DNA of 32,143 nt from Clostridia bacterium (GTDB taxonomy: Bacteria; Bacillota; Clostridia; Oscillospirales; Acutalibacteraceae): positions 1 through 32,143 of the forward strand of contig JAFSDM010000008.1 of assembly GCA_017436225.1 (NCBI GenBank). The letters are read 5' to 3'. Shown piece after piece: positions 16,578 through 32,044 of this stretch. The notes under the pieces were generated by a model that searched no databases, was not told where the DNA came from, and saw only the letters and a program-made list of their open reading frames with translations. Each line of letters starts with the position of its first letter. Positions within the stretch are counted from its first letter, which is position 1. A program made the translations under genes and the position numbers.

Positions 16578-16626
16578 ATAATAGATAATGTGCGATCATT
16601 TTTGCCTTGAAAAGGGGATTGATTTT

Positions 16627-17886
16627 TTGGAAAAATTTAAAAATAAAATATGGCTTGCCACACCTACAATGCACGGTGAAGAAATGGAATATGTTAAACA
16701 GGCTTATGATACAAACTGGATGAGCACTGTTGGCGAGAACATAAACGAAGTTGAAAAAATCGCTGCTAAGAAGGCGGAAATGAAATATGCAGTTGGTTTA
16801 TCTTGTTGTACTGCCGCACTTCATTTGGCAGTAAAGCACGCGGGCGAAACCCTTTACGGCAAACCTGCAATCAGTCACGGTGCATTAGAGGGTAAGCGAG
16901 TATTTTGCTCTGATATGACCTTTGACGCAACTCTTAACCCCGTGGTTTATGAAGGCGGTATCCCCGTGTTCATTGATACAGAAGCGAAATCGTGGAATAT
17001 GGACCCCGTAGCGCTTGAAAAGGCGTTTGAAATGTATCCCGATGTAAAATTAGTCGTTTCGGCAGAGCTTTATGGTTTCCCCGGTAGAATGGATTTAATC
17101 AAGCAAATCTGCGAAAAGCACGGCGCCCTTTTAATTGAGGATGCAGCCGAGGCAATGGGCGCAACCATTAACGGCAGACAGTGCGGCTCCTTTGGTGACT
17201 ATTCGGCTATAAGCTACAACGGCAATAAAATTATCACCGGTTCGGCGGGCGGCTGTCTTCTTACCAATGATTTGGAAATGGCAAATAAAGCTCGTAAGTG
17301 GTCTACACAGTCAAGGGAAAACGCCCCTTGGTATCAGCATGAGGAAGTCGGCTATAACTACCGTATGAGCAATGTAATCGCAGGTGTTGTGCGTGGTCAG
17401 TATCCCTATTTAGAGGAGCACATCGCACAGAAAAAAGCAATTTATGAGCGTTATCGTGACGGATTTAAGGGCTTGCCCGTACAAATGAATCCAATTACGG
17501 ATGGAACGGAGCCTAATTACTGGCTATCTGCTATGATTATAGATAAAGAGTATATGTGTAAACAGGTAAGGGATGACTCTAACGCTATCTATATAAAAGA
17601 GTCGGGTAAAACCTGTCCTACCGAAATTCTCGAAACACTTGCAGAGTATAATGCCGAAGGCAGACCAATTTGGAAGCCTATGCATATGCAGCCAATGTAT
17701 CGTATGCACGAGTTTGTAACCCGTGAGGGCAGCGGCCGCTGCAGAACAAACGCTTATATCGCAGGTGGCTGTTTGGACGTCGGCGCAGATATTTTTGAAC
17801 GTGGACTTTGTTTGCCAAGCGACAACAAAATGACCGCTGAAGAGCAAGCACAAATTATAGAAATTGTGAAATGCTGTTTTAAATAA
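16627..17886 (+). CDS. DegT/DnrJ/EryC1/StrS family sugar aminotransferase
   Basis: A 419-residue PLP-dependent aminotransferase acting on nucleotide-linked keto-sugars to make amino sugars. Visible: the substrate-binding start WMSTVGENINEVE, D172 in EDAAEAMGA (PLP ring contact) and the Schiff-base lysine K201 in SYNGNKIITG. Start choice: TTG 16627 has AAAGGGG 9 nt upstream, whereas ATG 16588 lies about 4 nt from the predicted transcript start and has no ribosome site. Followed after 21 nt by a PglC-like transferase, a pairing like PglE/PglC of bacillosamine pathways. The matching 4,6-dehydratase and acetyltransferase are not in this window, so the exact product is unknown. Confidence 0.88.
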   Translation: MEKFKNKIWLATPTMHGEEMEYVKQAYDTNWMSTVGENINEVEKIAAKKAEMKYAVGLSCCTAALHLAVKHAGETLYGKPAISHGALEGKRVFCSDMTFDATLNPVVYEGGIPVFIDTEAKSWNMDPVALEKAFEMYPDVKLVVSAELYGFPGRMDLIKQICEKHGALLIEDAAEAMGATINGRQCGSFGDYSAISYNGNKIITGSAGGCLLTNDLEMANKARKWSTQSRENAPWYQHEEVGYNYRMSNVIAGVVRGQYPYLEEHIAQKKAIYERYRDGFKGLPVQMNPITDGTEPNYWLSAMIIDKEYMCKQVRDDSNAIYIKESGKTCPTEILETLAEYNAEGRPIWKPMHMQPMYRMHEFVTREGSGRCRTNAYIAGGCLDVGADIFERGLCLPSDNKMTAEEQAQIIEIVKCCFK

Positions 17887-17907
17887 TTTTGAACGGAGAA
17901 ATACATA

Positions 17908-18603
17908 ATGTATGCAAGGTTTTTAAAAAGACCCATAGATTTTATTTTGTCTGCTACGGCTTTGATTGTGTTATCTCCCGTTTTGTTAATCTTGATTGTG
18001 GTTGGTGCAATTGCTATGAAGGGAAACCCGTTTTTCTTTCAACCACGACCGGGCAAAAAAGGAAAAGACAAAAAAGAAAAAATCTTTATGCTAATTAAAC
18101 TGCGTACTATGAGCAACGCAAAAGATAAGGATGGCAATCTTCTTCCCGATGACGTAAGACTGAATAAGTATGGAAAATTACTGCGATCCACCTCTTTGGA
18201 CGAGCTTCCCGAGCTTTTTAATATTTTTGTAGGTCATATGTCAATAGTCGGCCCAAGACCTCAGCTTGTTCGCGATATGATATTTATGAGTGACGAGCAA
18301 AGACGCCGTCATGATGTTCTTCCGGGTTTAACTGGTCTTGCACAGGTGAACGGGCGAAACAATATCACTTGGGAACAGAAAATTGAATTCGATCTTGAAT
18401 ACATAAATAAAGGAATTACATTTATTGGCGATGTGAATATAATTTTGCAAACCATAGGCAAGGTGTTCAAACGGGAAGATACCGTCCGTGAGGGAACCGT
18501 GTCAGATATGGACTTCGGAGACTGGCTTATGTTGGAAGGTAAGGTCGATAAAGCAACCTACGACGCAAAACAAAAAGAAGCAAAGGAATTATTGAGGAAT
18601 TAA
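17908..18603 (+). CDS. Initiating phosphoglycosyl transferase (bacterial sugar transferase, PglC-like)
   Basis: A 231-residue monotopic phosphoglycosyl transferase that moves a sugar-1-phosphate from a UDP-sugar to undecaprenyl phosphate, priming the repeat unit. An N-terminal re-entrant hydrophobic helix (about residues 8-35, KRPIDFILSATALIVLSP) precedes the catalytic core with KLRTM, the Asp-Glu dyad D98-E99 in STSLDELPEL and SIVGPRPQ. The small size without extra membrane helices is the PglC type rather than the WbaP type. ATG 17908 follows ACGGAG at 17892-17897. A C-terminal charged helical tail (about 200-231) extends beyond the core. Confidence 0.9.
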   Translation: MYARFLKRPIDFILSATALIVLSPVLLILIVVGAIAMKGNPFFFQPRPGKKGKDKKEKIFMLIKLRTMSNAKDKDGNLLPDDVRLNKYGKLLRSTSLDELPELFNIFVGHMSIVGPRPQLVRDMIFMSDEQRRRHDVLPGLTGLAQVNGRNNITWEQKIEFDLEYINKGITFIGDVNIILQTIGKVFKREDTVREGTVSDMDFGDWLMLEGKVDKATYDAKQKEAKELLRN

Positions 18604-18605
18604 AG

Positions 18606-19424
18606 ATGGAAAAATATAGCGTACTTATGTCGCTTTATGTAAAAGAAAAACCCGAATACTTACGTTTAGCTATTGATAGTATGATTAATCAAACGGTCGT
18701 TCCTGATGAGATTGTAATCGTGGAGGACGGTCCGTTGAATGATGAGTTGTACGCAATTATAAAAGAGTACACCGAAAAGCATCCCGATTTGTTTTCGATT
18801 GTGGTCAACAAAGAAAACTTGGGGTTGGGATTGGCGCTGAACGAAGGCCTTAAAGTGTGTAAAAACGAATTGGTAGCTAGAATGGATACGGATGATATTG
18901 CCAAGCCGGACCGCTGCGAAAAACAGCTTGCCGTCTTCCGAGAGAATCCGGAGCTGGCTATTGTGGGTGCCTATGTGGACGAGTTCCACACCACGCCGGA
19001 TCAGGTGGTATCCACCCGGGCAGTACCCCAGACCCATAAGGAGATCTATCAGTTTGCCAAAAAACGCAGCGCCTTTAACCATCCCGCGGTGATGTACCGT
19101 AAAAGCAAGGTGCTGGAATTCGGCGGTTACAGCGACCTGCGCCGGAATCAGGATGTAGATTTGTTTGGTAGAATGCTTTTTGGCGGTTGCAAAGCTGAGA
19201 ATATCGGTGAATCACTTTTGTATTTCCGTTCAAACGATGATCTTGCAAAGCGCCGCAAAAGCTGGGAAAATACCAAAAGCTATATCGATACCATCAAGCG
19301 GTTCTGGAAAATGGGCTACGCAAGTTTTACAGATTATACCATCGTAGCAGTTGCCCAAACGGGAATGTTCTTAATGCCCGTAAAACTACAGCATTGGGTG
19401 TATAAAACATTTTTGAGGAAGTGA
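18606..19424 (+). CDS. Family 2 glycosyltransferase (internal GC-rich patch)
   Basis: A 272-residue inverting GT2 (GT-A fold) enzyme. The N terminus SVLMSLYVKEKPEYLRLAI, VEDGP, and the metal-binding ARMDTDDIAKPDR (D94, D96) are typical; FNHPAVMYR and NQDVDLFGR mark the acceptor side. Probably adds the second sugar to the lipid-linked primer (inference from its position just after the PglC-like gene). Base composition jumps inside the gene: about 30-35% GC near the start, about 60% from roughly 18897 to 19020 and still high to 19150, then back near 43%. No frame break accompanies it, which suggests a recombined segment. Confidence 0.9.
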   Translation: MEKYSVLMSLYVKEKPEYLRLAIDSMINQTVVPDEIVIVEDGPLNDELYAIIKEYTEKHPDLFSIVVNKENLGLGLALNEGLKVCKNELVARMDTDDIAKPDRCEKQLAVFRENPELAIVGAYVDEFHTTPDQVVSTRAVPQTHKEIYQFAKKRSAFNHPAVMYRKSKVLEFGGYSDLRRNQDVDLFGRMLFGGCKAENIGESLLYFRSNDDLAKRRKSWENTKSYIDTIKRFWKMGYASFTDYTIVAVAQTGMFLMPVKLQHWVYKTFLRK

Positions 19425-19425
19425 A

Positions 19426-20703
19426 TTGGCATCAATGAGCCTGGAACAGAAGATCAATTATCATTTAAACAAGTTTCCTGTTGTCAAGAAAGTCATTAAG
19501 CGGGCATATCAACTGGGGATGTATGCCATTTCTCCAAAAATCAAGTCGGAGGGCAACATTGAGTGCGTTTCTCCCGATGATGGCAAGGAATATTTCTTTG
19601 GGTATTATGATAAATCTCCTTGGGATGCAACCCAGCGATATATGCTCTGTATGCGCGCTAATAACACCTGGAGCGATGTTTCTCCCAAAGAGCCTGCCGA
19701 TATTATACTCATTGACACGACTAAAGCAAAAGATGAAGATGGCCGTGTGAGAAAACTGGCAGAAACCAGAGCCTGGAATGTACAGATGTCCTGTATGCTC
19801 CAGTGGCTTGGACCCGATTATCAAAGCAAGATCCTGTACAACGATTTTCGCGACGGAAGATTCTGTGCCGTGATCCTGAACGTGGAAAGCGGCGAGGAGC
19901 GCGTGATCGATGCGCCGGTATACAGCGTATCTGCCGACGGCAAGTTTGCCCTTACGTTGGATTTTGCCCGACTGTATTCTCTGCGCCCCGGTTACGGTTA
20001 TTACAATGTACCCGAGGTCACGAAGGACGTTGCCCTCCCGGATGCACCCTGTATCTGGACCGTGGATCTGGAAAGTGGGGAAGTAAAGCCTCTGCTGAAG
20101 TATACAGATTTTGCCGCGTTCCAGCCCCGGAAAGAAATGCAGGAGAATGGGGCTGTACACAAGGTCAACCATATTATGCTCAGCCCCAACGGCAAGCGGT
20201 TTATGGTGCTGTACCGCTGGTTCAACGGTCAGCGGAAGTATACCCGCCTGATCACCTGCAATATTGACGGCAGCGATATGTATGTACTCAGCGATGATGA
20301 CATGGTATCCCACTGCTATTGGAAAAACGACGGCGAAATCATTGCCTTTGAAAACAAGCACAGCGGCGGCCCCGGCTATTACCTAATGAAGGATAAAACA
20401 CAGGAGTATACGCACCTGTGGAGCAAGTACAGCAATGATGGACATCCCAGCTATTCGCCGGACCGTAGCTTTGTGGTAACGGATTCCTACCCGGACCGTG
20501 CCCGTATTGCAGAAATTAAATTATTGAAAGATACGGATATAGAAGCAAAAGACGTAAAAATTTTGGCAAGAGTGTTTGCCCCCTTCCGATATGATAACGA
20601 TACCCGATGCGATCTGCACCCTAGATGGAGCAGAGACGGAAGAACTATTTGTTTTGATGCTGTGTTTGAGGGACATCGAGGTTTGTATATCGTTGGTATT
20701 TAA
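19426..20703 (+). CDS. Beta-propeller-like protein of unknown role in the polysaccharide locus
   Basis: A 425-residue soluble protein without signal peptide or membrane segments. It has repeating blade-like motifs in the style of TolB/WD40 propellers: VYSVSADGKFALTLDF, HIMLSPNGKRFMVLYRW, HPSYSPDRSFVVTDSYP and LHPRWSRDGRTICFDAVF, each with an Asp/Gly turn. No catalytic motif is recognised. Similar proteins occur in capsule loci but the role is not known to me; a scaffold for glycosyltransferases or a polymer-processing enzyme are guesses. TTG 19426 is preferred over ATG 19435 because GAGG at 19415-19418 spaces correctly to it. The gene is strongly GC-rich (55-62%) from about 19840 to 20515 but about 33% GC at both ends. 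Confidence 0.6.
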   Translation: MASMSLEQKINYHLNKFPVVKKVIKRAYQLGMYAISPKIKSEGNIECVSPDDGKEYFFGYYDKSPWDATQRYMLCMRANNTWSDVSPKEPADIILIDTTKAKDEDGRVRKLAETRAWNVQMSCMLQWLGPDYQSKILYNDFRDGRFCAVILNVESGEERVIDAPVYSVSADGKFALTLDFARLYSLRPGYGYYNVPEVTKDVALPDAPCIWTVDLESGEVKPLLKYTDFAAFQPRKEMQENGAVHKVNHIMLSPNGKRFMVLYRWFNGQRKYTRLITCNIDGSDMYVLSDDDMVSHCYWKNDGEIIAFENKHSGGPGYYLMKDKTQEYTHLWSKYSNDGHPSYSPDRSFVVTDSYPDRARIAEIKLLKDTDIEAKDVKILARVFAPFRYDNDTRCDLHPRWSRDGRTICFDAVFEGHRGLYIVGI

Positions 20704-20726
20704 TGATTGAATACAAGGAGAAAAAT

Positions 20727-21629
20727 ATGATTAGCGTAGTAATTCCCACACATAATAGAGCAGATTTATTGCCTAGGGCTATTAAAAGCGTTCAAGCGCA
20801 AACTTATACCGATTTAGAGATACTTATTGTATCCGACGGATCTGAAGATAACACCCAAGAAGTTGTGGAAGAACTAGCGAAGGACGATAACAGAATCAAG
20901 TTTATCGAGTATTTTCCCGCAAGAGGTGGCAATGTTGCACGTAATACCGGCATTGAGAACGCTTCCGGTGAGTATGTGGCATTCCTGGACGATGATGACG
21001 AGTTCATGCCGGAAAAGTTGGAAAAGCAAATGGCAGTGATGAAATCAGATCCGCAGATCGGTTTGGTATATACCGGTGTTAAAGTTATATATGCTAATGA
21101 AGGCGTTGAATATGCCTCTGTACCTAAGGCTACCGGTGATCTGAGTAGTGAAATTCTGTTGGACAATATTATTGGAACTACATCAACAGTTATGGCGCGT
21201 AAAGAACTATTACTACAAGCAGGTGGATTTGATGTGCAATTGCGAGCACTACAGGATTTTGATTTGTGGATTCGCATTTGTCAGCTCTGCAAAGTTGGAT
21301 TTGTCCCTGAAGAGATGATTAACTATTATAACTATACCGGCACAAAGCAGGTGTCTGCTCTCACGAATAAATACATCGAATCCTTTGCATATATAAACAA
21401 GAAATACAATGATATGCTGAATGCTCTGCCAAAAGAAAAGCAGCGAGAGAAAAAGTATAATGAGTATATGCTCCTAGGCAATAAAGCAATGCGAAACGGA
21501 GACGGTAAATTGGCAAGGCGGTTTATTAAAGCTGCATTGAGAGAAATAAAGAGCAAGAAGGCTATAGCATATTATCTGCTTTCATTTTGTAGTTATAAGA
21601 CAGTTTTGAAACTGAGAAGTTGTTTTTGA
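20727..21629 (+). CDS. Family 2 glycosyltransferase
   Basis: A 300-residue GT2 enzyme starting MISVVIPTHNRADLLPRAI. It has the nucleotide-binding VSDGSEDNT and a metal-binding run of four aspartates (D88-D91) in AFLDDDDEF, followed by QDFDLWIR on the acceptor side. ATG 20727 is chosen because AAGGAG (20715-20720) is 6 nt upstream; an in-frame ATG at 20703 overlaps the previous stop but lacks a site. The C-terminal 90 residues are basic and helical. It is likely one of the sugar-adding steps on the cytoplasmic face of the membrane; donor and linkage cannot be deduced. Confidence 0.88.
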   Translation: MISVVIPTHNRADLLPRAIKSVQAQTYTDLEILIVSDGSEDNTQEVVEELAKDDNRIKFIEYFPARGGNVARNTGIENASGEYVAFLDDDDEFMPEKLEKQMAVMKSDPQIGLVYTGVKVIYANEGVEYASVPKATGDLSSEILLDNIIGTTSTVMARKELLLQAGGFDVQLRALQDFDLWIRICQLCKVGFVPEEMINYYNYTGTKQVSALTNKYIESFAYINKKYNDMLNALPKEKQREKKYNEYMLLGNKAMRNGDGKLARRFIKAALREIKSKKAIAYYLLSFCSYKTVLKLRSCF

Positions 21630-21652
21630 CAGTTGATTGGTGAGGAGAAGTA

Positions 21653-22771
21653 ATGGCAAATAAGGTTCATATTCTACAAGTTACAGGTTCTCTGCGAGTG
21701 GGTGGATTGGAAAATGTCGCAATGAATATTATTCGTTATAGCGATAAGCAGAAGTATGCCATTGATTATTTGGTATATGGAGCTGGCGTTGAACCTTTAG
21801 AAGCAGAAGTGGAAGCTCTCGGTGGACGGGTATTTCATATTCCATACCCGCATATGGGGGCTGGAAAGTATGTGCGGGAAATGAAGCGCGTAATGCAGGA
21901 AAACGGTCCTTATGATGTGGTACACGCACATTCGCTGTTTAATTCTGGTTTTGTCATGAAAGCTGCTTATGAAATGGGCATTGCAATTCGGATATCTCAT
22001 GGGCATAGTGACCGCAGAAATGTAAAAGTGAAGTTCCATCGTGATATTTATAACAGATATATGCGCTATTTGATTAATAGGTATGCAACACAGAAATTTG
22101 CTTGTTCTGAGGGAGCAGGAAAATATTTGTACGGCAAAGGTTACGGGGAAGATGTTTATATTGTAAAAAATGGTGTTGATGTGGAAAAATTCCGCTTTGA
22201 CCAAGAAAAACGCCTTGTAATTAAGAAGGAGTTTGGCTGGGAAGACTGTAAGATCGTGGGTCATATTGGAAGACTTGCGCAGGTGAAAAATCAGAAGAAA
22301 GTTATTGATGTTTTTTATCATGCCTATCAGCAGGATTCCTCGCTTCGTTTGTTGATTGTTGGGGATGGAGAGTTAAAAGATGAATTGCAGCAACAAATCG
22401 ATTCACTTAGACTACATGATGTTGCTAAGTTAGTGGGCACACGCCGTGATATACCTGATTTGTTGTCTGCATTCGATGTATATATGATGCCTTCTTTTTA
22501 TGAAGGAGTTAGTATTTCTTTAATTGAAGCACAAGTTTCGGGTGTGCATTGCTTGGTATCTTCCAATGCTGCTGCAAAAGAGACTCGCATTACAGATTGC
22601 ATCAATGTTCTAGAATATACCGATTCTGACGAAGCGTGGGCGGAGCGAGTTGTTTACTTGGTAAATAAAGAACGTATTATGCATACTGAAGGTGAAATCA
22701 AAGAGCAAGGATATGACATTAAAGATATTGTTAGTAACGCAATAAAATTATACGGAGAAAAAAATGATTAA
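21653..22771 (+). CDS. Family 4 glycosyltransferase (EpsF-like)
   Basis: A 372-residue retaining GT-B enzyme. The glycine-rich N-terminal loop GSLRVGGLENVAMNII, the HAHSLFNSGF segment and the C-terminal GHIGRLAQVKNQK donor-binding block are typical of GT4. The EX7E motif is E284 and E292 in YEGVSISLIEAQ. Closest in style to EpsF-type exopolysaccharide glycosyltransferases of Firmicutes. Its end overlaps the polymerase gene by 8 nt, so translation is coupled. The linkage made is unknown. Confidence 0.88.
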   Translation: MANKVHILQVTGSLRVGGLENVAMNIIRYSDKQKYAIDYLVYGAGVEPLEAEVEALGGRVFHIPYPHMGAGKYVREMKRVMQENGPYDVVHAHSLFNSGFVMKAAYEMGIAIRISHGHSDRRNVKVKFHRDIYNRYMRYLINRYATQKFACSEGAGKYLYGKGYGEDVYIVKNGVDVEKFRFDQEKRLVIKKEFGWEDCKIVGHIGRLAQVKNQKKVIDVFYHAYQQDSSLRLLIVGDGELKDELQQQIDSLRLHDVAKLVGTRRDIPDLLSAFDVYMMPSFYEGVSISLIEAQVSGVHCLVSSNAAAKETRITDCINVLEYTDSDEAWAERVVYLVNKERIMHTEGEIKEQGYDIKDIVSNAIKLYGEKND

Positions 22772-23990
22772 ATTATTGGATGTAAAGTTAAATGATGCTT
22801 TAAGTTTTTTAGCGGTATTTATTGCATTCATTTGCGCTACAAATGGTGAGTTAGCTAATACCAACAACACTGTAATATATTACATACCTTATTTAGTGTG
22901 TTTTGTGGCGCTTGCGCTTGAACTTCTGCTATTCTTTTATAAAAAATTTATTATACCTTCCTATTTAGTATGGCGTGTAGGAATTATTATATTTTTCCTT
23001 TTTAGTATAATTTATGCAACTACTGGTGCCAACTGGTTTGTTATTATTAAAAAATATATAGCACAATCTATAGTAGTGTTTTTAATTTCGTTTAAATGTA
23101 TGGTAGCAAAGGAAAATATCCAAAAATTTATAAGGATTGCTATTGTGGCTATGTTTTTTAGTTTGCTGTATGTATTAACAAGTGTTGATCTGGCAATGGT
23201 ACGGGAAGGCGTTCGTCTAGGTGTAGATTCTCTTAATGAAGCATGGAATGCTAACGATATAGGGCTAACTTCATCTATGGGTGGCGTATTAACTTGGTAT
23301 ATTTTCTTTGTTCATTCCAAAACATTAACCAAACGCCAAAAAATATTAGGCATTATATTAGAGTTGTTTTTCTTACTTTTCTCAGTTCTTTCCGGTTCCA
23401 GAAAATCATTGCTTATTTTCTTTTCTGCAATATTTGTTTATTATATTGGAAAATCAAAATCTAATAAAATAAGAAATATTATGCTAACCATAGTAGGTGT
23501 CTCAGTTTTATGGTATGCAATTTTTAATATTCCTTTTTTGTATGAACATATTGGTTACCGTTTTGAAGGCGCGTTGGATATGCTAAGTGGCACTGGTGGT
23601 GACAGAAGTTCTCAGATCCGCAGGGATATGTTAGAGATCGGTTTGCAAGCCTTTAAACAAAAACCATTTTTAGGGCATGGGCTTAACGGTTTTTCTATTG
23701 TGTATGGTAACCTTACCGGTGCACACGTGTATTCACACAATAATTATATTGAAATATTGGTTAATACCGGAATAATAGGTTTTTTGCTTTACTATGGCTA
23801 TATTGTGCGGATGGTGTTTGTGCGTGTTAATGGTAATAAAGAACTAATTATGTTTAAGGCTATATTAATAGCTTTGCTTTTAGCTGATGTAGGCTTAGTC
23901 AGTTATACGGCTGCATCATATCAGTATGTTTTGTGTTTAGTAATATGTGGTATTTCACAAAAATCGTTAATTCCGCAGGAAAATACGTGA
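22764..23990 (+). CDS. Wzy-like polymerase / O-antigen ligase family membrane protein
   Basis: A 408-residue polytopic membrane protein with about ten to twelve hydrophobic segments. It carries the Wzy_C signature: SGSRKSLLIFF, then a long outside loop with arginine-rich GDRSSQIRRDM, GHGLNGF (H305) and the SHNNYIEILVNTGIIGF block near 325. Proteins of this type polymerise flipped repeat units at the outer face of the membrane. The presence of a Wzx-like flippase downstream supports polymerase over ligase. It is noticeably AT-rich compared with mfd or rsmE. Start ATG 22764 lies within the end of the preceding gene, with GGAG about 8 nt upstream. Confidence 0.88.
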   Translation: MIKLLDVKLNDALSFLAVFIAFICATNGELANTNNTVIYYIPYLVCFVALALELLLFFYKKFIIPSYLVWRVGIIIFFLFSIIYATTGANWFVIIKKYIAQSIVVFLISFKCMVAKENIQKFIRIAIVAMFFSLLYVLTSVDLAMVREGVRLGVDSLNEAWNANDIGLTSSMGGVLTWYIFFVHSKTLTKRQKILGIILELFFLLFSVLSGSRKSLLIFFSAIFVYYIGKSKSNKIRNIMLTIVGVSVLWYAIFNIPFLYEHIGYRFEGALDMLSGTGGDRSSQIRRDMLEIGLQAFKQKPFLGHGLNGFSIVYGNLTGAHVYSHNNYIEILVNTGIIGFLLYYGYIVRMVFVRVNGNKELIMFKAILIALLLADVGLVSYTAASYQYVLCLVICGISQKSLIPQENT

Positions 23991-24027
23991 ATCAGAGAAG
24001 ATTTGGTAGTGGTGAAAGGATGGATAT

Positions 24028-25098
24028 ATGAAAATTGCATTTTCAATGGCAAATATGCTTGGCGGCGGAGCAGAGCGGGTTGTATCTGAGTTGGTAAATT
24101 CTTTTGTAGAGCAGGGCCACGATGTATCGATTATTGTTGTGAAGGCTTCAGAGTGCGTGTATCCGCTTAAGGCTCAGGTTAAGCTCGTGGATTTGTCTGC
24201 AAAGGATAAAGGTATTTTGTCGCGAATATGTGCTTTGCGTCAATGCATTAAGAAAAATCGCTACGATGTTGTGATTTCTTTCTTGACTAGTACGAATATT
24301 GAAACGTTGTTGGCTATGGTAGGGTTGGGTATTCCTACAGTGATTAGTGAGAGGAATAACCCCTATATATTACCTGAGGGCAAAATATACCGTTTTCTTA
24401 GGTCAGTGACCTATCCTTTGGCAAAGGGTTACGTATTTCAGACGCCGGATGCTCAGGCGTTTTTTAGCAAGAGGATTCAAAAGAAAAGTGTGGTTATTAT
24501 GAATCCTATCAAATCCCAGTTGCCTGCGGTATATAGCGGAGAACGTGAAAAACGGGTTGTAAATGTAGGTAGATTGGTTCCTCAAAAAAACCATAGAATG
24601 TTTATAGATGCTTTTTGCGAATTTTCCAAGAGCCACCCCGATTATATCGCGGAAATTTACGGCGAAGGCCCCTTAGATAAAGAGTTGTTGGATTATATCC
24701 GGTCTAGCGGTATGGAAACCAAGGTGTTTCTCCGTGGTTTTTGCAAGGATGTATTATCGGAGATTGCAAGCGCAGCGATGTTTATAATGTCTTCCGACTA
24801 TGAAGGTATGAGCAATGCGTTGATCGAAGCGGTTGGAATGGGAATTCCGTGTATTTCTACCGATCATCCCATTGGTGGCGCACGGTTGACAATTCAAGAT
24901 GGTGTCAGCGGCTTTTTGGTTCCTGTGGGTGACACTTATAAATTAACTGAGAAAATGTCTAATATTGCTGATGATCCGGAATTGGCAAGCAAATTCTCAA
25001 AGCAGGGAGTATCGCTTCGTAATAAGCTATCAATCCAAGAAATTGCAAAGAGTTGGATTGAATATATCGAAAAAGTAAGGAAAGGTAATAAGTCATGA
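24028..25098 (+). CDS. Family 4 glycosyltransferase (PglH/PglJ-like)
   Basis: A 356-residue GT-B enzyme. N terminus MKIAFSMANMLGGGAERVV; donor-site blocks NVGRLVPQKNH and SSDYEGMSNALIEAVGMG, with E259 and E267 of the EX7E motif; then CISTDHPIGGARLTIQDG. This last block is typical of the N-acetylgalactosaminyltransferase-like group around Campylobacter PglH/PglJ and many O-antigen enzymes, so a HexNAc donor is plausible (inference). ATG 24028 follows GAAAGGATGG. It overlaps the next gene by 4 nt. Confidence 0.88.
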   Translation: MKIAFSMANMLGGGAERVVSELVNSFVEQGHDVSIIVVKASECVYPLKAQVKLVDLSAKDKGILSRICALRQCIKKNRYDVVISFLTSTNIETLLAMVGLGIPTVISERNNPYILPEGKIYRFLRSVTYPLAKGYVFQTPDAQAFFSKRIQKKSVVIMNPIKSQLPAVYSGEREKRVVNVGRLVPQKNHRMFIDAFCEFSKSHPDYIAEIYGEGPLDKELLDYIRSSGMETKVFLRGFCKDVLSEIASAAMFIMSSDYEGMSNALIEAVGMGIPCISTDHPIGGARLTIQDGVSGFLVPVGDTYKLTEKMSNIADDPELASKFSKQGVSLRNKLSIQEIAKSWIEYIEKVRKGNKS

Positions 25099-26006
25099 GA
25101 TTCTCAAGCTTATTTAAATTAAAAGTGTGGAAGAATTGGTTTCTGCAAAGTCCAATGGCCGTTGTTTTACCCGATAAAACGCATATCAAAATGCGTTTTA
25201 AATTAAAAATGGGAAAAAAGTTAAACCTGGAGAATCCGCAGACTTTTAACGAGAAGCTTCAATGGCTAAAACTCTATGACCGCAAGCCTATTTATACCAC
25301 TATGGTGGATAAGGTAGCTGTAAGAGACTATATTACAAAGACTATAGGTGAAGAATATCTTATACCTTGTTTGGGGGTTTGGGATTCTCCTGATGATATT
25401 GACTTTGATTTGTTACCTGAACAATTTGTTTTGAAATGCAATCATAATTCCGGGCTTGGAATGTGCATTTGTAAGGACAAGTCCAAATTAAACATAGAGA
25501 AGATAAAAAAAGGATTAAAAAAAGGTCTTGCACAAAATTATTATTTATACGGTCGTGAATGGCCGTATAAAAATGTGAAGCCTCGTATTATTGCAGAACA
25601 GTATATGGAGGATTCCTCTGGCGGATTAATCGACTACAAATTTTTCTGTTTTAACGGAACTGTTGATTGCGTTATGGTTTGCATTGACAGGCATATTAAC
25701 GACCCCAAATTCTACTTTTTTGATTCTAACTGGAAACTCAAAAGGCTCAATATAAGGGGAAAAGAAGCTCCTGAGAATTTTACATTGCCTATGCCCGAGT
25801 GTATGCCGCGCATGTTTGCTTTGGCCAAAGAACTTGCAAAAAGCCATTCTTTTGTCAGAGTCGATCTTTATGAATGCAATGGAAAAATATATTTTGGTGA
25901 ACTTACTTTTTTCCCCGATAGTGGTTTCGACAATAAACTGCTTTGGGAAACGGATAAGTATTTTGGTGATGCTTTGATATTACCCATAAAGGAGAAAAAA
26001 ATATGA
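25095..26006 (+). CDS. TupA-like ATP-grasp ligase
   Basis: A 303-residue member of the TupA-like ATP-grasp family. TupA is named from teichuronopeptide synthesis in alkaliphilic Bacillus, and the family is predicted to form amide bonds between amino acids or peptides and cell-surface polymers. Visible: PQTFNEKLQWLKLYDR (48-63), FVLKCNHNSGLG (111-122, with K114 as likely ATP contact), RIIAEQYM, FVRVDLYE (D257) and the metal/ATP-binding end GELTFFPDSGF (268-278, E269). No signal peptide, so it acts in the cytoplasm. Its ATG overlaps the glycosyltransferase stop and its stop overlaps the octopine-dehydrogenase-like gene by 4 nt, so the three are tightly coupled. Substrates are unproven. Confidence 0.82.
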   Translation: MRFSSLFKLKVWKNWFLQSPMAVVLPDKTHIKMRFKLKMGKKLNLENPQTFNEKLQWLKLYDRKPIYTTMVDKVAVRDYITKTIGEEYLIPCLGVWDSPDDIDFDLLPEQFVLKCNHNSGLGMCICKDKSKLNIEKIKKGLKKGLAQNYYLYGREWPYKNVKPRIIAEQYMEDSSGGLIDYKFFCFNGTVDCVMVCIDRHINDPKFYFFDSNWKLKRLNIRGKEAPENFTLPMPECMPRMFALAKELAKSHSFVRVDLYECNGKIYFGELTFFPDSGFDNKLLWETDKYFGDALILPIKEKKI

Positions 26007-27067
26007 AAATTACGGTTATTGGTGCAGGAAATGCTGGAACAACAGTGGCGGCGCAGTTATCATATTTTGGACACGAGGTTACTGTTTTGAGAACCTCAAA
26101 CCATTTGCACAATGAACACTATGCTCTGTTTAAGCAAACAAGAATTATCAAGGTTATAGATGAGTATTTGGGCGACTATACTGCTCAAATACATCATGTT
26201 ACCGAATCTTTTGAGGAAGCTATTCCTACTGCCGAACTGATTATAGTTTATGTTCAGACTTCATATCACGAAGCCGTTATAAAAAATATGATTCCTTATT
26301 TAAAGGATGGACAAGCTATTCTTTTTGAACCGGGCTACCTTTCGACAGCTTTTCTATTGAAATATTGTAATAAAGACATTATTTCAATAGAAGCAGAAAG
26401 TTCACCCATAGATTGTCGTATAATAGAACCTTGTTTATGTAAGGTGTTATTTAAAAATGTTATGAATCCGATGGGTGTGTACCCTTCTAATAAAAAAACT
26501 GTCGCTGCAGAAATCCTTGACAAACTTGGATTTCCTTACAGATTTACAGATAATGTTGTAGAAGCGGCACTTCATAATCCTAACCTTATTGTTCATACTA
26601 TTGGAGCATTATTCAGTATACCAAGAATTGAATATACAAATGGAAGGTATTGGATGTATAAAGAAGTATTTACGCCTCATGTATGGAACGTATGTGAATC
26701 ATTAGATGCTGAGAAGATGGCTGTTATGAGCAAAGTGGGGGTCGTTAAACGTCAAAGCTATGTTGAAGCTTGTCAAGAGCGGAATTTCGTTAACGATGAA
26801 CGATCTCCTTTGGATTCTTTTTTTGATTATGCAATGAATTCCTCTCCCGAAGGACCTTCCATTCCTGATTCGAGGTATTTGACTGAGGATGTTCCGCAGG
26901 GATTAGTTTTATTAGAGTCTTTGGGAATATATCTAAATGTTCCTACACCGACTTGTTCATCTTTGATTGATTTAGCAAGTGTAGCTTTAAAAATAGATTT
27001 TAGAGCTTGTGGCAGAACAGTAGACAAGCTTGGCATAGAAAACTTGTCGAAAATCCAAAACGGTTAA
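26003..27067 (+). CDS. NAD/NADP octopine (opine) dehydrogenase family protein
   Basis: A 354-residue protein with an N-terminal Rossmann domain (GAGNAG, 7-12) and the all-helical octopine/nopaline dehydrogenase domain. The diagnostic helical-domain block HNPNLIVHTIGALF places the conserved catalytic histidine at H198; the partner acidic residue is probably D296 in RYLTEDVPQGL. Family members reductively condense an amino acid with a 2-oxoacid to give N-(carboxyalkyl)amino acids (opines). Lying between an ATP-grasp ligase and a CapA-like gene inside a polysaccharide operon, it may make an opine that is attached to the polymer (inference). AAAGGAG at 25987-25993 precedes ATG 26003. All core motifs appear intact. 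Confidence 0.82.
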   Translation: MKITVIGAGNAGTTVAAQLSYFGHEVTVLRTSNHLHNEHYALFKQTRIIKVIDEYLGDYTAQIHHVTESFEEAIPTAELIIVYVQTSYHEAVIKNMIPYLKDGQAILFEPGYLSTAFLLKYCNKDIISIEAESSPIDCRIIEPCLCKVLFKNVMNPMGVYPSNKKTVAAEILDKLGFPYRFTDNVVEAALHNPNLIVHTIGALFSIPRIEYTNGRYWMYKEVFTPHVWNVCESLDAEKMAVMSKVGVVKRQSYVEACQERNFVNDERSPLDSFFDYAMNSSPEGPSIPDSRYLTEDVPQGLVLLESLGIYLNVPTPTCSSLIDLASVALKIDFRACGRTVDKLGIENLSKIQNG

Positions 27068-27077
27068 GGAGACTGTT

Positions 27078-28214
27078 ATGAATATTCTTATAGGTGCAGA
27101 TTTAGTTCCTACCGCTTCGAATTTTAGTGTTTTCAAGGCGGGGGATGGCGTTTCACTTGTTGGAGAAGAATTGCTCAATATCTTAAACAAGGCAGATTAT
27201 CGTATATTTAACCTTGAAGTTCCGCTTTGTGATAATGCTGCTCCAATAGAAAAGTGCGGCCCTGCGCTTATCGCATCTACGTATACCATATCCGGCTATA
27301 ATGCTTTGGGTGTAGATTTGCTTACTCTTGCAAATAATCATATAATGGATCAAGATAATCAAGGTTTGATTTCAACCATAAATCTTTTAAACGGTAATGG
27401 TATTGCTTATTTAGGCGCGGGTGAAACCTTAGAACAGGCAAAAAAACCTTATAATTTCCAACTTGATGGCAAAAAAATCGGCGTATATGCATGTGCAGAA
27501 CACGAATTTTCTATCGCTGATGATAAAGCTCCGGGAGCCAATCCCTTTGACCCGTTTGAGTCTCTTGATCATATTGCAGAGATGAAAGGGGAATGCGACT
27601 ATGCTATTGTGCTTTACCACGGAGGTAAGGAACATTATAGATATCCATCTCCTTCTTTGCAAAAGACCTGTCGCAAGATGGTTGAAAAGGGCGCTGACCT
27701 TGTTGTGTGCCAGCATAGCCATTGTGTAGGCTGTGAAGAAAAATATAACGGTGCAACAATCGTTTATGGTCAGGGTAATTTTCTATTTGACGGTAGCGAG
27801 AACGAATGTTGGCAGACGAGCCTGATAGTTTCTGTTAACGAGAATGGTGAAGTGTCATACATACCATTAAAAAAGACAGGAAATTCTGTGCGGGTGGCAA
27901 AAGAAGATGAAGCCGCTGATATAATGGATGGTTTTATAAACAGAAGCGAAGAAATAAAGCAAAATGGCTTTATTGAAAGAAAATATGCAGAGTTTGCAGA
28001 TTCTATGATAAAACATTATTTATTTGCATTCTCAGGCATAAAAAGAAATTTTGTTTATAAAGTTTTTAATAAGTTGTTGGGGTATAGACTGACTGATTGG
28101 ATACTTAAAAGAAAGTATACTAAAGACAAACGGCTTGCTTTGCAAAATTATATTGAATGTGAAGCTCACAGAGAATTGTTTATTCAAGGCCTTAGGATAA
28201 ACAACAAATTATAA
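27078..28214 (+). CDS. CapA-family protein (poly-gamma-glutamate capsule type, metallophosphatase fold)
   Basis: A 378-residue protein of the CapA/PgsA family (PGA_cap), which has a calcineurin-like metallophosphoesterase fold. Metal-site motifs are all visible: GADLVP with D8, FNLEVP (N45, E47), ANNHIMD (N86-H88), LYHGGKEH (H181, E185), CQHSHCVG (H213, H215) and VYGQGNFLFD. In Bacillus, CapA takes part in polyglutamate capsule synthesis and export and is membrane anchored; this protein has no N-terminal signal or anchor, so it is probably cytoplasmic. A C-terminal extension (about 290-378) is basic. It follows the opine-dehydrogenase-like gene by 10 nt. No CapB/CapC genes are near, so a full polyglutamate capsule is not indicated. 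Confidence 0.8.
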   Translation: MNILIGADLVPTASNFSVFKAGDGVSLVGEELLNILNKADYRIFNLEVPLCDNAAPIEKCGPALIASTYTISGYNALGVDLLTLANNHIMDQDNQGLISTINLLNGNGIAYLGAGETLEQAKKPYNFQLDGKKIGVYACAEHEFSIADDKAPGANPFDPFESLDHIAEMKGECDYAIVLYHGGKEHYRYPSPSLQKTCRKMVEKGADLVVCQHSHCVGCEEKYNGATIVYGQGNFLFDGSENECWQTSLIVSVNENGEVSYIPLKKTGNSVRVAKEDEAADIMDGFINRSEEIKQNGFIERKYAEFADSMIKHYLFAFSGIKRNFVYKVFNKLLGYRLTDWILKRKYTKDKRLALQNYIECEAHRELFIQGLRINNKL

Positions 28215-28227
28215 CGAGGGTGTTTTT

Positions 28228-29700
28228 TTGAATAATAGTATTAATAAAAAAGTTGGGCGCGCTGCGGCTTGGTCTTCTGTAACCGAGCTTATGGCAAAAC
28301 TTATTTCGCCTATTGTAAATATTTTTTTGGCAAGGCTTTTGTTGCCGGAAGCATTCGGCATCGTGGCAACTATTACTATGGTTACCAGTTTTGCTGAAGT
28401 GTTTACCGATGCGGGATTTCAAAAATATATTATTCAGCATGAGTTTAAGGACGAAAATGAGTTAAACGAAAGCACAAATGTAGCCTTTTGGACTAACTTG
28501 GGGATCTCCATATTTGCTTGTTTAGTAATTTTTGTTTTTAGAGATCGAATAGCAATTCTTGTTGGAAATTCTGGCTTGGGAATATCTATAAGCATTGCCT
28601 CGTTACTTATAGTGTTTCATGCTTTTTCAAGTATTCAAATGGCTCGCTATAAAAGAGAACTAGATTTCAAAACATTGTTTTTTGTAAGAATAGGAACATC
28701 GTTAATTCCTTTGGTTATAACCATTCCGTTGGCAATTGTTTTAAGAAATTATTGGGCTTTAATAATAGGGAATTTTGCAACGCAAGGGTTTAATGCTTTT
28801 GTTTTAACGGTGAAATCTAAGTGGAAAATCAAGTTTTTTTATAACTTTTCGCTTTTTAAGCAAATGTTTTCTTTTAGCGTGTGGACACTTTTAGAAAGCA
28901 TATCCATTTGGCTTACATCAAATATTGATATTTTCTTAATAAGCAAATATCTTGATGAACATTATCTTGGGTTATATAAAACCTCAATGGCAACCATAAA
29001 TTCATATATGGGATTGATTACAGCAGCTCTCACACCGGTACTATTTTCTACTTTATCAAGATATCAGAATGATGATAAACAGTTTAAATCTACATATTAT
29101 ACCTTTCAAAAATTAACTTCTGTTTTAGTTGTTCCTATGGGAATAGGTATATTTATTTTTAGTGATCTAGTTACCTTGATTTTGTTGGGCGAAAATTGGA
29201 TGGAAGCTAGTGGCTTTATTGGTTGGTGGGGACTCACTAGTGCTTTTACTATAATTTTTTCTCACTTTTCTAGTGAAGTAATACGCAGTAAAGGAAAACC
29301 ATTAATTTCTTTTATAATTCAAGTTATTCATATTTTAGTACTGATGCCGGTTTTGATTATGTTCAAAGATTCTGGTTTTAGGACGCTATATATAGTTCGT
29401 TCTTTATTAAGAGTAGAACTTATATTGTCAGCAATTATAGTTTTGTGTGTAATCTTTAAATTTAATCTCAGAAAGATTTTTGTTAATATTATTCCTGCTA
29501 TGTTTTCTGCTATCATAATGGCAGTTGTAGGTTATTGTGTCAGAGGTATTTTTGATAACATAATCTGGCAATTTGCATCAATTTTTATTTGTGTTATTGT
29601 ATATTTTGTTATTTTATTAGGTTGTTTCCCGAAACTCAGACGCGAGCTTTTGGAAACCGAGTATGCAAAAAAGATTGTGAAAATTTTTAATAGAAGATAA
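28228..29700 (+). CDS. Wzx-like lipid-linked oligosaccharide flippase
   Basis: A 490-residue polytopic protein of the MOP/MATE-like polysaccharide flippase family with about fourteen hydrophobic segments. The N terminus KVGRAAAWSSVTELMAKLI and the block RLLLPEAFGIVATITMVTSF are typical of the Wzx/TuaB/AmsL group, which moves undecaprenyl-linked repeat units across the membrane. TTG 28228 is taken as the start because GAGGGTG (28216-28222) is well spaced and no ATG fits. It follows the CapA-like gene by 13 nt. It is AT-rich, like the polymerase gene. Confidence 0.9.
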   Translation: MNNSINKKVGRAAAWSSVTELMAKLISPIVNIFLARLLLPEAFGIVATITMVTSFAEVFTDAGFQKYIIQHEFKDENELNESTNVAFWTNLGISIFACLVIFVFRDRIAILVGNSGLGISISIASLLIVFHAFSSIQMARYKRELDFKTLFFVRIGTSLIPLVITIPLAIVLRNYWALIIGNFATQGFNAFVLTVKSKWKIKFFYNFSLFKQMFSFSVWTLLESISIWLTSNIDIFLISKYLDEHYLGLYKTSMATINSYMGLITAALTPVLFSTLSRYQNDDKQFKSTYYTFQKLTSVLVVPMGIGIFIFSDLVTLILLGENWMEASGFIGWWGLTSAFTIIFSHFSSEVIRSKGKPLISFIIQVIHILVLMPVLIMFKDSGFRTLYIVRSLLRVELILSAIIVLCVIFKFNLRKIFVNIIPAMFSAIIMAVVGYCVRGIFDNIIWQFASIFICVIVYFVILLGCFPKLRRELLETEYAKKIVKIFNRR

Positions 29701-29737
29701 CAAATAAGATCTTGAAATACTATTTTAGGAGAGTTTT

Positions 29738-30829
29738 ATGCTTATCTCAAACATTAATTTAACAACCACCCCTATCCTAATCACCGGAGCTGCCGGTTTT
29801 ATTGGCTCCAATCTTGTTATGGAGCTGCTTCGCACCGTTCCGGGTATAAGTATTGTCGGTCTTGACAATATGAATGATTACTATGACGTTTCCATTAAGG
29901 AATACCGTCTTTCAGAGATTGAAAAGCTTGCTACGGAGCACCCTGACTGCAAATGGGAGTTCGTTCGCGGCAATATCGCCGACCGTGCGCTGATTGACGG
30001 TCTTTTTGAAAAACATCATTTCTCGGTTGTGGTTAATCTTGCCGCGCAGGCGGGGGTTCGTTACTCGATTACCAATCCCGACGTTTATATTGAGAGCAAC
30101 ATAATTGGTTTCTACAATATTCTTGAAGCTTGTCGCGCTACTATGAATACAGACCACCCCGTTGAGCACTTGGTTTACGCTTCATCCTCCTCGGTTTATG
30201 GAACTAATAAAAAAATTCCATATTCAACTGATGACAAGGTGGACAACCCCGTGTCTTTATATGCTGCTACTAAAAAGTCAAACGAGCTTATGGCTCATGC
30301 CTACTCAAAGCTTTATAATATTCCGTCAACCGGACTGCGATTTTTTACCGTTTACGGTCCTGCGGGGCGCCCCGATATGGCTTATTTTGGCTTTACAAAC
30401 AAGCTGCTAAAGGGCGATACTATTGAGATTTTCAACTACGGCAACTGCAAACGAGACTTCACATATGTGGACGACATAGTTGAGGGGGTTAAGCGTATTA
30501 TGCAGCATGCTCCCGAAAAGGCAATGGGCGAGGATGGACTTCCTCTGCCGCCCTATGCCGTTTACAATATCGGAAACAACAGCCCTGAAAATCTGCTCGA
30601 CTTTGTAACAATTTTGCAGGAGGAGCTTATCTGCGCAAAGGTCTTGCCCGAAGATTATGATTTTGAGGCACACAAAAAGCTTGTTCCCATGCAGGCGGGC
30701 GACGTGCCTGTTACTTATGCCGATACCTCGGCGTTGGAGCGCGATTTTGGCTTCAAGCCATCAACCCCACTTCGTGACGGGCTTCGCAAATTTGCCCAGT
30801 GGTACCACGAATTTTATCAGTCTAAGTAA
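29738..30829 (+). CDS. UDP-glucuronate 4-epimerase
   Basis: A 363-residue short-chain dehydrogenase/epimerase. The GITGAAGFIG-type nucleotide motif (17-23) is followed by DNMNDYYD, the block AAQAGVRYSITNPDVYIESN that marks UDP-GlcA 4-epimerases, YASSSSVYG and Y175xxxK179. GRPDMAYFGFT and GNCKRDFTYVDD fit the same group. It would interconvert UDP-glucuronate and UDP-galacturonate in the cytoplasm. TTTAGGAGAG precedes ATG 29738. Codon use is richer in GC than the flippase just upstream. Together with the next gene it points to galacturonic acid as a building block of the polymer. A GDP-mannose-type or other uronate epimerase is the main alternative. Confidence 0.87.
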   Translation: MLISNINLTTTPILITGAAGFIGSNLVMELLRTVPGISIVGLDNMNDYYDVSIKEYRLSEIEKLATEHPDCKWEFVRGNIADRALIDGLFEKHHFSVVVNLAAQAGVRYSITNPDVYIESNIIGFYNILEACRATMNTDHPVEHLVYASSSSVYGTNKKIPYSTDDKVDNPVSLYAATKKSNELMAHAYSKLYNIPSTGLRFFTVYGPAGRPDMAYFGFTNKLLKGDTIEIFNYGNCKRDFTYVDDIVEGVKRIMQHAPEKAMGEDGLPLPPYAVYNIGNNSPENLLDFVTILQEELICAKVLPEDYDFEAHKKLVPMQAGDVPVTYADTSALERDFGFKPSTPLRDGLRKFAQWYHEFYQSK

Positions 30830-30868
30830 AAAGGTCTATTTTTAGGAAAGGATTAATAGGTAAAGCAT

Positions 30869-32044
30869 ATGACCGTATATGATGCGTTTAAAAACATCTA
30901 CAAAAAGGAACCGCAACACATAGCTTTTACCCCGTACCGAGTTTGCCCTATCGGCGCACACTCCGATCATCAACTTGGCAAGATCACGGGTTTTGCTATC
31001 AATAAGGGTATTCACATTGCCTACGGTCCAAAAGAAAACGGTGTAATAGAAATTCAGTCCTTGCAGTTTGAAAAAAGAGCGCAATGGCATGTTGAAGCCA
31101 CCCCAAAAGTGAAAGAAAACGATTGGGCAGATCATTTACGCGGCGCTACAATAGCCCTTAATAAGCGCTATCCGCTTCGCCGAGGACTTTGCGCAGTTAT
31201 AAAAGGGGAGCTTCCTATTGGTGGACTTTCTTCATCTGCCGCGGTTATTATTACCTATTTGTCCGCACTTTGTAAAATGAATTGCATTGAGCTTTCACCA
31301 GAAGAGCTTATTACAATTTCAAAGGAAGCCGAAAATAAATACGTTGGCGTATCTTGTGGTAAGCTGGACCAAAGCTGTGAGGTGTACTGCAAGAAGGATC
31401 ACCTTCTTTATATGGATTTGCAAGATGATACTTACGAACTGATTCCGCAATCCGATAATATGAAGCCCTATAAGTTTGCAATCTTCTTCAGCGGTTTGGA
31501 ACGCAGTCTGGCAGGCTCGGCATTCAATATGCGTGTTGATGAGTGTAGAAGCGCTGCTTATGCTCTCAAGGCTTTTGCGGGTATTGAGTACGGTAAATTT
31601 GAAGAAACAAACCTTCGAGACGTTCCCGTCGAAGTCTTCCATCAATACAAGGATAGATTACCTGAAAATTGGCGCAAGAGAGCTGAGCACTGGTATACAG
31701 AGTTTGAACGCGTTGAAAAGGGCGCTGAGGCTTGGCGTAGGGGAGATATTGAAGAATACGGCAGACTCTCCTTTGAGAGCGGCTATAGCTCTATTCATAA
31801 CTGGGAAACAGGCTCGCCTGAGCTTATTAAGCTGTATGAAATAATGACCAAAACGAAGGACATTTACGGCGGCAGATTTTCGGGCGCAGGCTTTAAGGGG
31901 TGTTGCCTCGCAATTATTAACCCCGAATATGAAGAAAGTATTATTCAAACCGTTACAAAGGAATATTTAAAGGCATTTCCACAGCTGGAAGGTAAATATT
32001 CAGTTCACATTTGCGAGAGTGCAGATGGGGTGAAATTGAATTAA
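30869..32044 (+). CDS. GHMP-family sugar kinase, galacturonokinase-like
   Basis: A 391-residue GHMP kinase related to galactokinase. ATP loop PIGGLSSSAAV (116-126), catalytic-base segment GKLDQSC (D167) and C-terminal GRFSGAGFKGCC are intact. The sugar-binding N terminus reads PYRVCPIGAHSDHQLG (22-37) instead of the GRVNLIGEHTDY of true galactokinase: the Glu and Tyr that contact galactose are replaced. From memory this GAHxDHQ form, and the later RAEHW and GSPELIKLY segments, resemble plant galacturonokinase, so galacturonate 1-kinase is the favoured guess. It would feed UDP-galacturonate with a pyrophosphorylase not seen here. It follows the uronate epimerase by 39 nt. Substrate assignment is inference. 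Confidence 0.75.
   Translation: MTVYDAFKNIYKKEPQHIAFTPYRVCPIGAHSDHQLGKITGFAINKGIHIAYGPKENGVIEIQSLQFEKRAQWHVEATPKVKENDWADHLRGATIALNKRYPLRRGLCAVIKGELPIGGLSSSAAVIITYLSALCKMNCIELSPEELITISKEAENKYVGVSCGKLDQSCEVYCKKDHLLYMDLQDDTYELIPQSDNMKPYKFAIFFSGLERSLAGSAFNMRVDECRSAAYALKAFAGIEYGKFEETNLRDVPVEVFHQYKDRLPENWRKRAEHWYTEFERVEKGAEAWRRGDIEEYGRLSFESGYSSIHNWETGSPELIKLYEIMTKTKDIYGGRFSGAGFKGCCLAIINPEYEESIIQTVTKEYLKAFPQLEGKYSVHICESADGVKLN

Follow-up and report, generated by a model that had tools for sequence, protein, structure and literature searches.

We analysed a locus of a Clostridia bacterium (Acutalibacteraceae; assembly GCA_017436225.1) in which three consecutive forward-strand genes code for a TupA-like ATP-grasp ligase (hereafter TupA), a protein of the octopine dehydrogenase family (ODH) and a CapA-like protein. 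The window, i.e. the whole stretch of 32,143 nucleotides that was analysed, is one entire contig (JAFSDM010000008.1) of a 1.39 Mb genome assembled in 47 contigs and estimated to be 87.8% complete. The TupA gene (25095..26006) encodes a putative amidoligase of 303 residues, proposed from its Pfam match, its place in the TupA tree and the precedent of Cj1438 of Campylobacter to join the amine of an opine or amino acid to a uronate by an amide bond; it matches PF14305 with 210.6 bits (cut-off 25) over positions 1-240 of the 241 of the profile. The ODH gene (26003..27067; 354 residues), a candidate opine synthase, matches PF02317 with 125.3 bits (cut-off 30), and its N-terminal part is also over the cut-off for several NAD-binding families. 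The CapA-like gene (27078..28214) encodes a soluble protein of 378 residues of the metalloenzyme family PF09587 (PGA_cap; 160.9 bits, cut-off 27), which may be an epimerase or catalyse another finishing step. TupA and ODH overlap by 4 nt and a gap of 10 nt separates ODH from the CapA-like gene. The open reading frames, with Pfam matches far over the cut-offs, confirm the positions and spacing given in a first-pass annotation of this DNA.

The trio belongs to an operon of 14 genes in the same direction (16588-32044), separated by gaps of less than 40 nt or by small overlaps. Their order is DegT aminotransferase, PglC-like sugar transferase, glycosyltransferase GT2, PD40-like protein, GT2, GT4, Wzy_C, GT4, TupA, ODH, CapA-like, Wzx, NAD-epimerase and GHMP kinase, the forward-strand part upstream of the trio (DegT to the second GT4) covering 16588..25098. 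The initiating transferase (Bac_transf, 173.6 bits), the glycosyltransferases, the Wzy-type polymerase (22764..23990, forward strand; Wzy_C, 62.3 bits) and the Wzx-type flippase (28228..29700, forward strand; Polysacc_synt_3, 272.2 bits) are all present in this single operon, so that the earlier placing of the trio within a Wzx/Wzy-type locus holds.

The octopine dehydrogenase-family protein and its neighbours

The sole strong relative of ODH in the PDB is N-(1-D-carboxylethyl)-L-norvaline dehydrogenase (CENDH, 1bg6), with an E-value of 4.9e-27 over residues 5-349, i.e. a whole-length match, and the next is octopine dehydrogenase (3c7a). His198, Arg291 and Asp296 of ODH are kept without exception in the 12 relatives aligned; Arg291 and Asp296 align with Arg324 and Asp329 of octopine dehydrogenase, and His198 with a histidine of 1bg6. 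We take the positions aligned with this His/Arg/Asp set to be the catalytic residues in octopine dehydrogenase. To our knowledge, both CENDH and octopine dehydrogenase are soluble metabolic enzymes with no tie to a glycan locus.

ODH genes were found in 11 of the 391 genomes of the class at E 1e-60, the home genome counted, and in 7 of the 295 genomes of the order at E 1e-20, and a genome scan gave a further 12 loci. The neighbours of ODH were then examined in 24 close loci outside the window. TupA adjoins ODH in two of them, in Ruminococcus flavefaciens Y1 (L009) and Enterococcus italicus DSM 15952 (L018), and a gene of the ATPgrasp_ST type does so in nine (L021, L022, L039, L041, L044, L045, L046, L047 and L048). 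The ATPgrasp_ST assignment is confirmed by Pfam in six loci with full-length proteins and relies on similarity in L044 and L047, while the piece in L045 has no Pfam match; the neighbours in L045 and L047 are fragments only. This position beside TupA or ATPgrasp_ST suggests that the dehydrogenase partners ATP-grasp enzymes of two families. In the ODH tree, whose outgroup consists of four far relatives on long branches, the ATPgrasp_ST-linked proteins form one group (95/100), the window ODH clusters with that of R. flavefaciens (92/83) and the E. italicus protein lies elsewhere.

Two loci, L041 (7728-11156) and L044 (8815-12219), have a single ATPgrasp_ST gene between two ODH-family genes, with no obvious polysaccharide locus around them; this is possibly a small opine-peptide pathway. 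On a Lactococcus garvieae plasmid (L119, 6019-8003), a TupA-like gene directly adjoins an ATPgrasp_ST gene; the locus is of the capsule type and also encodes a nucleotide sugar dehydrogenase.

Probable exchange of the opine synthase beside related TupA ligases

A search of the class with TupA gave matches in 43 of the 391 genomes at E 1e-30, of which the best 30, the window included, were taken with flanks of 1.5 kb. The second-best match, in genome G335, is followed by a 315-residue protein X, a CapA-like protein, a Wzx, an epimerase (612 bits to that of the window) and a UDP-glucose-type dehydrogenase. Protein X, which thus occupies the slot of ODH, belongs to the AlaDh_PNT family and has no sequence homology to ODH. 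In a tblastn search of plasmids it matched proteins annotated as N(5)-(carboxyethyl)ornithine synthase (CEOS) with 33% identity on an E. coli plasmid, 30% in Lactococcus and 28% in Vagococcus. Its blast scores are close for the two candidate types, 124 bits for CEOS and 117 bits for alanine dehydrogenase. A plain alanine dehydrogenase was nevertheless rejected, since X is short of some 50 residues that the compared alanine dehydrogenases possess, and the X-type proteins group with the annotated CEOS proteins, apart from three alanine dehydrogenases, at 100/99 in a 12-row tree in which long branches are flagged.

X-type genes occur in 6 of the 391 genomes (E 1e-40), and TupA adjoins three of them (G335, G455 and G640). 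The CEOS type, at about 30% identity to the Lactococcus protein, is found in these three genomes in the slot held in the window by the non-homologous ODH. The gene order of G455, TupA-CEOS-membrane protein-epimerase-dehydrogenase, is that of R. flavefaciens with CEOS in place of ODH (TupA-ODH-membrane protein-epimerase-dehydrogenase). The membrane protein following the opine gene (L009, L087) matches no Pfam or NCBIfam model and is called flippase-like from its position and hydropathy alone.

Among the 45 rows of a TupA tree, the proteins with an opine-type neighbour number six, and five of them fall in one group (93/78); with L053 the six rows are held together at 100/99. Within this group the ODH and CEOS types are mixed, the window protein pairing with that of G335 (L049; 98/85) and that of G455 (L055) with those of L018 and L009 (100/97); the sixth, from G640, is distant in the tree. 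Considering these branching patterns, the TupA ligase lineage seems to have retained an opine partner through a change of synthase. The presence of an unrelated opine-synthase family in the same slot is the best evidence that the window ODH makes an opine.

A residue signature of TupA for opines was also considered. Eight positions are common to the five opine-neighbour proteins of the group and rare elsewhere, and the L083 protein carries six of the eight. The signature was discarded as a marker, because L053 (five positions) and L080 (four) share some of them with no opine gene seen nearby, so that ancestry may explain it. As further architectures, TupA is fused to a Wzy-type domain in L057 (1483-3603) and to a GT2 domain in L079 (1-2334), the latter as in Cj1438 of Campylobacter.

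The exact succession TupA-ODH-CapA was found, among the loci examined, in the window only; in G335 CEOS stands in place of ODH, and L009 and L018 present TupA-ODH with no CapA. The first-pass annotation had treated the three genes as one cassette. The neighbourhood comparison gave no second exact trio, and the CapA-like gene follows TupA with or without an opine gene; only the pairs TupA-CapA and TupA-opine synthase recur, and the idea of a conserved three-gene module was abandoned.

The CapA-like protein

The CapA-like protein presents no transmembrane segment, its highest mean hydropathy over 19 residues being 1.12 compared with 2.47-2.97 in the Wzy, Wzx and PglC proteins of the same operon. 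PgsA is membrane-anchored; the protein of the window shares the PGA_cap family with PgsA/CapA of poly-gamma-glutamate synthesis but has no N-terminal membrane anchor, and a role as a component of such a system was rejected on this ground. In Bacillus subtilis, the D/L ratio of poly-gamma-glutamate is reported as 5/95 without pgsA and 75/25 with pgsA, for which the authors, in the available part of the source, propose causes other than epimerisation by PgsA (PMC6029982).

The sole notable PDB match of the CapA-like protein is MslH (1.7e-15). According to the available part of the MslH paper, this enzyme epimerises the C-terminal residue of a peptide and uses Asp11, Glu44, Asn87, His88, Asp91, His259, His261 and His295 (PMC10406935). 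Six of the seven aligned site residues (Glu44, Asn87, His88, Asp91, His259 and His295) are kept in the window protein, as Glu47, Asn87, His88, Asp91, His181 and His215, whereas His261 is replaced by Gly183; MslH Asp11 lies outside the alignment, with Asp8 of the CapA-like protein at the expected place. Asp8, Glu47, Asn87, His88, Asp91, His181, His213 and His215 are invariant in the 11 of 11 subfamily members. The protein scores 62.9 bits against the NCBIfam equivalog model of MslH, for which the cut-off is 700. An opine N-linked to a uronate with its carboxylate free would resemble a peptide C-terminus, which makes an epimerase chemically sensible, and we tentatively propose this function for the CapA-like protein while holding it to be less than an even chance. 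The role in transfer that had also been suggested found no support, the site residues fitting an MslH-like epimerase at least as well.

Concerning its distribution, ten of the 29 other TupA loci taken from the class have a CapA-like gene after TupA (in G335 with CEOS between them). Seven of these ten genes look full length and three are broken or short (G503, G400 and G548). Two of the other loci from a phylum search, L105 and L113, also have one near TupA. It is absent beside TupA in four of the six TupA-opine loci (L009, L018, G455 and G640, the contig of G640 being short). At E 1e-70 the CapA-like protein was detected in 10 of the 42 other TupA-positive genomes, in eight of them beside TupA, and at 1e-40 in none of 30 TupA-negative genomes (one-sided Fisher p 0.003, to be read bearing in mind that the negative genomes were hand-picked). 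Its plasmid relatives were given little weight, being haloarchaeal, about 29-35% identical and, in the one examined, in an unrelated setting. Copies that look truncated or carry stops lie beside an intact TupA in L094 (9217-9444), L097 (9203-9601) and L098 (9878-10804); the gene may be dispensable, and assembly error is another possible explanation.

The probable uronic acid route and a related plasmid locus

The NAD-dependent epimerase of the operon (29738..30829, forward strand; PF01370) has its best PDB match with 5u4q (363.8 bits), labelled as a dTDP-glucose 4,6-dehydratase, and weaker ones with WbgU and 6zl6. In L009, L049 and L087 its relatives (578-612 bits) have a UDP-glucose-type dehydrogenase as immediate neighbour, and because of these neighbours we read the window enzyme as probably a UDP-glucuronate/galacturonate 4-epimerase. 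The last gene of the operon codes for a galactokinase-like GHMP kinase (30869..32044, forward strand) that scores under the cut-offs of the galactokinase models; beside a uronate-type epimerase, it could be a uronate kinase.

A CEOS-type locus was found on plasmids in 2 of 5,426 E. coli genomes, with the order ATP-grasp-CEOS-flippase-glycosyltransferases-epimerase-dehydrogenase. EpsG is encoded there too, the flippase gene is best described as flippase-like, the epimerase is NAD-dependent and matches that of the window with 333 bits, and the dehydrogenase is of the nucleotide sugar type. The ATP-grasp protein of the locus, annotated as such in one record, matches neither Pfam nor the TupA and ATPgrasp_ST profiles; the locus follows the same logic with another ATP-grasp.

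Other features of the window

A PD40/beta-propeller-like protein of 425 residues is encoded within the operon at 19426-20703, and a relative of it adjoins TupA in L069. At the other end of the contig, a partial sigma-like open reading frame (1-462) precedes a region (895-2812) with a pemK-type cis-regulatory RNA (Rfam RF02913, 70.7 bits), a small DUF6462 gene (944-1255) and a Tn916-type integrase (1490-2812); together they look like the end of an integrative element.

Discussion

The operon would direct the synthesis of a Wzx/Wzy-type surface polysaccharide in which a uronic acid residue, probably galacturonate, bears an amide-linked opine. ODH would reductively join a 2-oxo acid, most likely pyruvate, to an amine of lysine or ornithine, the likeliest amino acid substrates, to give an N-(1-carboxyalkyl) amino acid; with either of them the second amine would stay free for ligation. 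As the precedent of Cj1438 suggests, TupA would then form an amide between this free amine and the carboxylate at C6 of the uronic acid, either at the stage of the sugar nucleotide or on the lipid-linked repeat. More speculatively, and with less confidence than for the preceding steps, the cytosolic CapA-like protein could act on the carbon next to the newly formed amide by inverting or otherwise editing it, in the way MslH acts on the C-terminus of a peptide, before export by Wzx and polymerisation by Wzy.

Taken jointly, the formation of an opine and its amide linkage to a uronate are, in our judgement from the sequences, somewhat more likely than not. Of what the first-pass annotation proposed, this is the best supported part, by the swap of the synthase beside related TupA proteins, by the uronate genes in the operons and by the TupA precedent of Campylobacter; the trio as a single cassette did not stand.

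Several observations weigh against this proposal. Neither TupA nor ATPgrasp_ST lies beside ODH in 13 of the 24 close loci, so that ODH would also function without such a ligase; two of the 13, L020 and L043, run into the end of their contig. Three of the six X-type genes have no TupA neighbour, and the genome of L053 (G571), whose TupA belongs to the same group, has no ODH match at 1e-60 and no X match at 1e-40. The known ODH-family enzymes act on alpha-amines and CEOS on omega-amines, and the two products therefore need not match. On the uronate side, no match to PF03721 over the cut-off, i.e. no UDP-glucose-type dehydrogenase, was found in the home genome as assembled (87.8% complete), the two matches below it including ODH itself, and the E. 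italicus locus (L018) has no epimerase or dehydrogenase of this kind within 21 kb. The contig ends 99 nt past the GHMP kinase gene, and in G591 relatives of this kinase (531 bits), of the epimerase and of the dehydrogenase lie together in one TupA-CapA locus; from this arrangement, our guess is that the missing dehydrogenase is located beyond the contig end.

The frequency of ODH genes with no ligase beside them would also be expected if TupA ligated an ordinary amino acid to the uronate and ODH were a reductase with a different role, such as reducing some other imine or balancing redox through a free opine, its position being due to chance or regulation. An opine-type gene is missing from the majority of the TupA loci seen, and plain amino acids on uronates are described as common in the available part of PMC10609480. 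We nevertheless regard this explanation as unlikely, since a non-homologous opine-synthase family occupies the same slot beside the same TupA lineage, and in nine loci ODH lies beside an ATP-grasp gene of a second family. Still less probable, in our view, is that the opine is carried off the main polymer, on an amino sugar or a small molecule, a 4-amino sugar made by DegT being acylated by the opine carboxylate. The DegT aminotransferase is the first gene of the operon, some ODH-ATPgrasp_ST pairs lie outside obvious polysaccharide loci, and there is a published structure with alanopine on 4-amino-4,6-dideoxyglucose (Qui4N) in Providencia alcalifaciens O35 (cited in PMC10609480). However, the characterised TupA-like domain couples an amine to the carboxylate of the uronate, as far as the available text of PMC11800379 describes, and uronate genes recur beside the TupA-opine genes.

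For the CapA-like protein, the competing function is that of a phosphatase, TupA ligating a phosphorylated amine that is afterwards dephosphorylated. The family has a calcineurin-like fold, and in Campylobacter the reactions run in this order, ligation of serinol-phosphate or ethanolamine-phosphate being followed by loss of the phosphate through Cj1435 (PMC11800379, available part). The site residues do not discriminate between the two functions, the MslH paper mapping them on the phosphodiesterase YmdB (PMC10406935, available part). Yet neither a kinase nor a pathway for a phosphorylated amine could be recognised among the genes of the window operon. An opine requires no phosphate, and MslH, the relative whose structure has been solved, is an epimerase; we therefore consider a phosphatase rather unlikely, and less so an epimerase.

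TupA of Bacillus halodurans, the name-giver of the Pfam family, links polyglutamate to polyglucuronate in teichuronopeptide, and opine residues on bacterial polysaccharides are known from structures of a few Gram-negative O-antigens. The C-terminal, TupA-like domain of Cj1438 of Campylobacter jejuni is of the same family as the window TupA and amidates glucuronate at its C6 carboxylate before chain extension; it differs in being fused to a GT2 domain and in having a phosphorylated-amine partner and a separate phosphatase, and no opine synthase is mentioned in the available part of the source (PMC11800379). The closest known structure to the one predicted here is the O-antigen repeat of Providencia rustigianii O14, which, in the available part of PMC10609480, holds Ne-[(S)-1-carboxyethyl]-Na-(D-galacturonoyl)-L-lysine. 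The earlier statement that an opine-type lysine occurs amide-linked to a uronic acid in Providencia is thus borne out by a published structure. That polymer is a Gram-negative lipopolysaccharide known as a structure, whereas the window offers genes alone, from Firmicutes-type bacteria. No paper tying an opine dehydrogenase or CEOS to a polysaccharide or O-antigen locus was found in searches of the open-licence literature, which misses most subscription journals.

A wider proposal would be a Firmicutes-type family of opine-decorated polysaccharides, in which an opine-specialised TupA lineage is repeatedly served by two unrelated synthase families and a soluble, TupA-restricted CapA-like C-alpha epimerase sets the stereochemistry of the amide-linked residue; in this full form we hold it to be doubtful. 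If opine synthesis and ligation are correctly read, the pair of ligase and opine synthase genes would predict opine-bearing glycans in rumen and gut bacteria and in lactic acid bacteria, and would be a clean example of non-homologous enzyme replacement preserving a glycan modification. The soluble CapA-like enzymes linked to TupA would be a handy model for the function of CapA/PgsA, and, should the C-alpha epimerase assignment hold, they would show the CapA fold in a new, glycan-tailoring role and would hint at the general function of CapA/PgsA.

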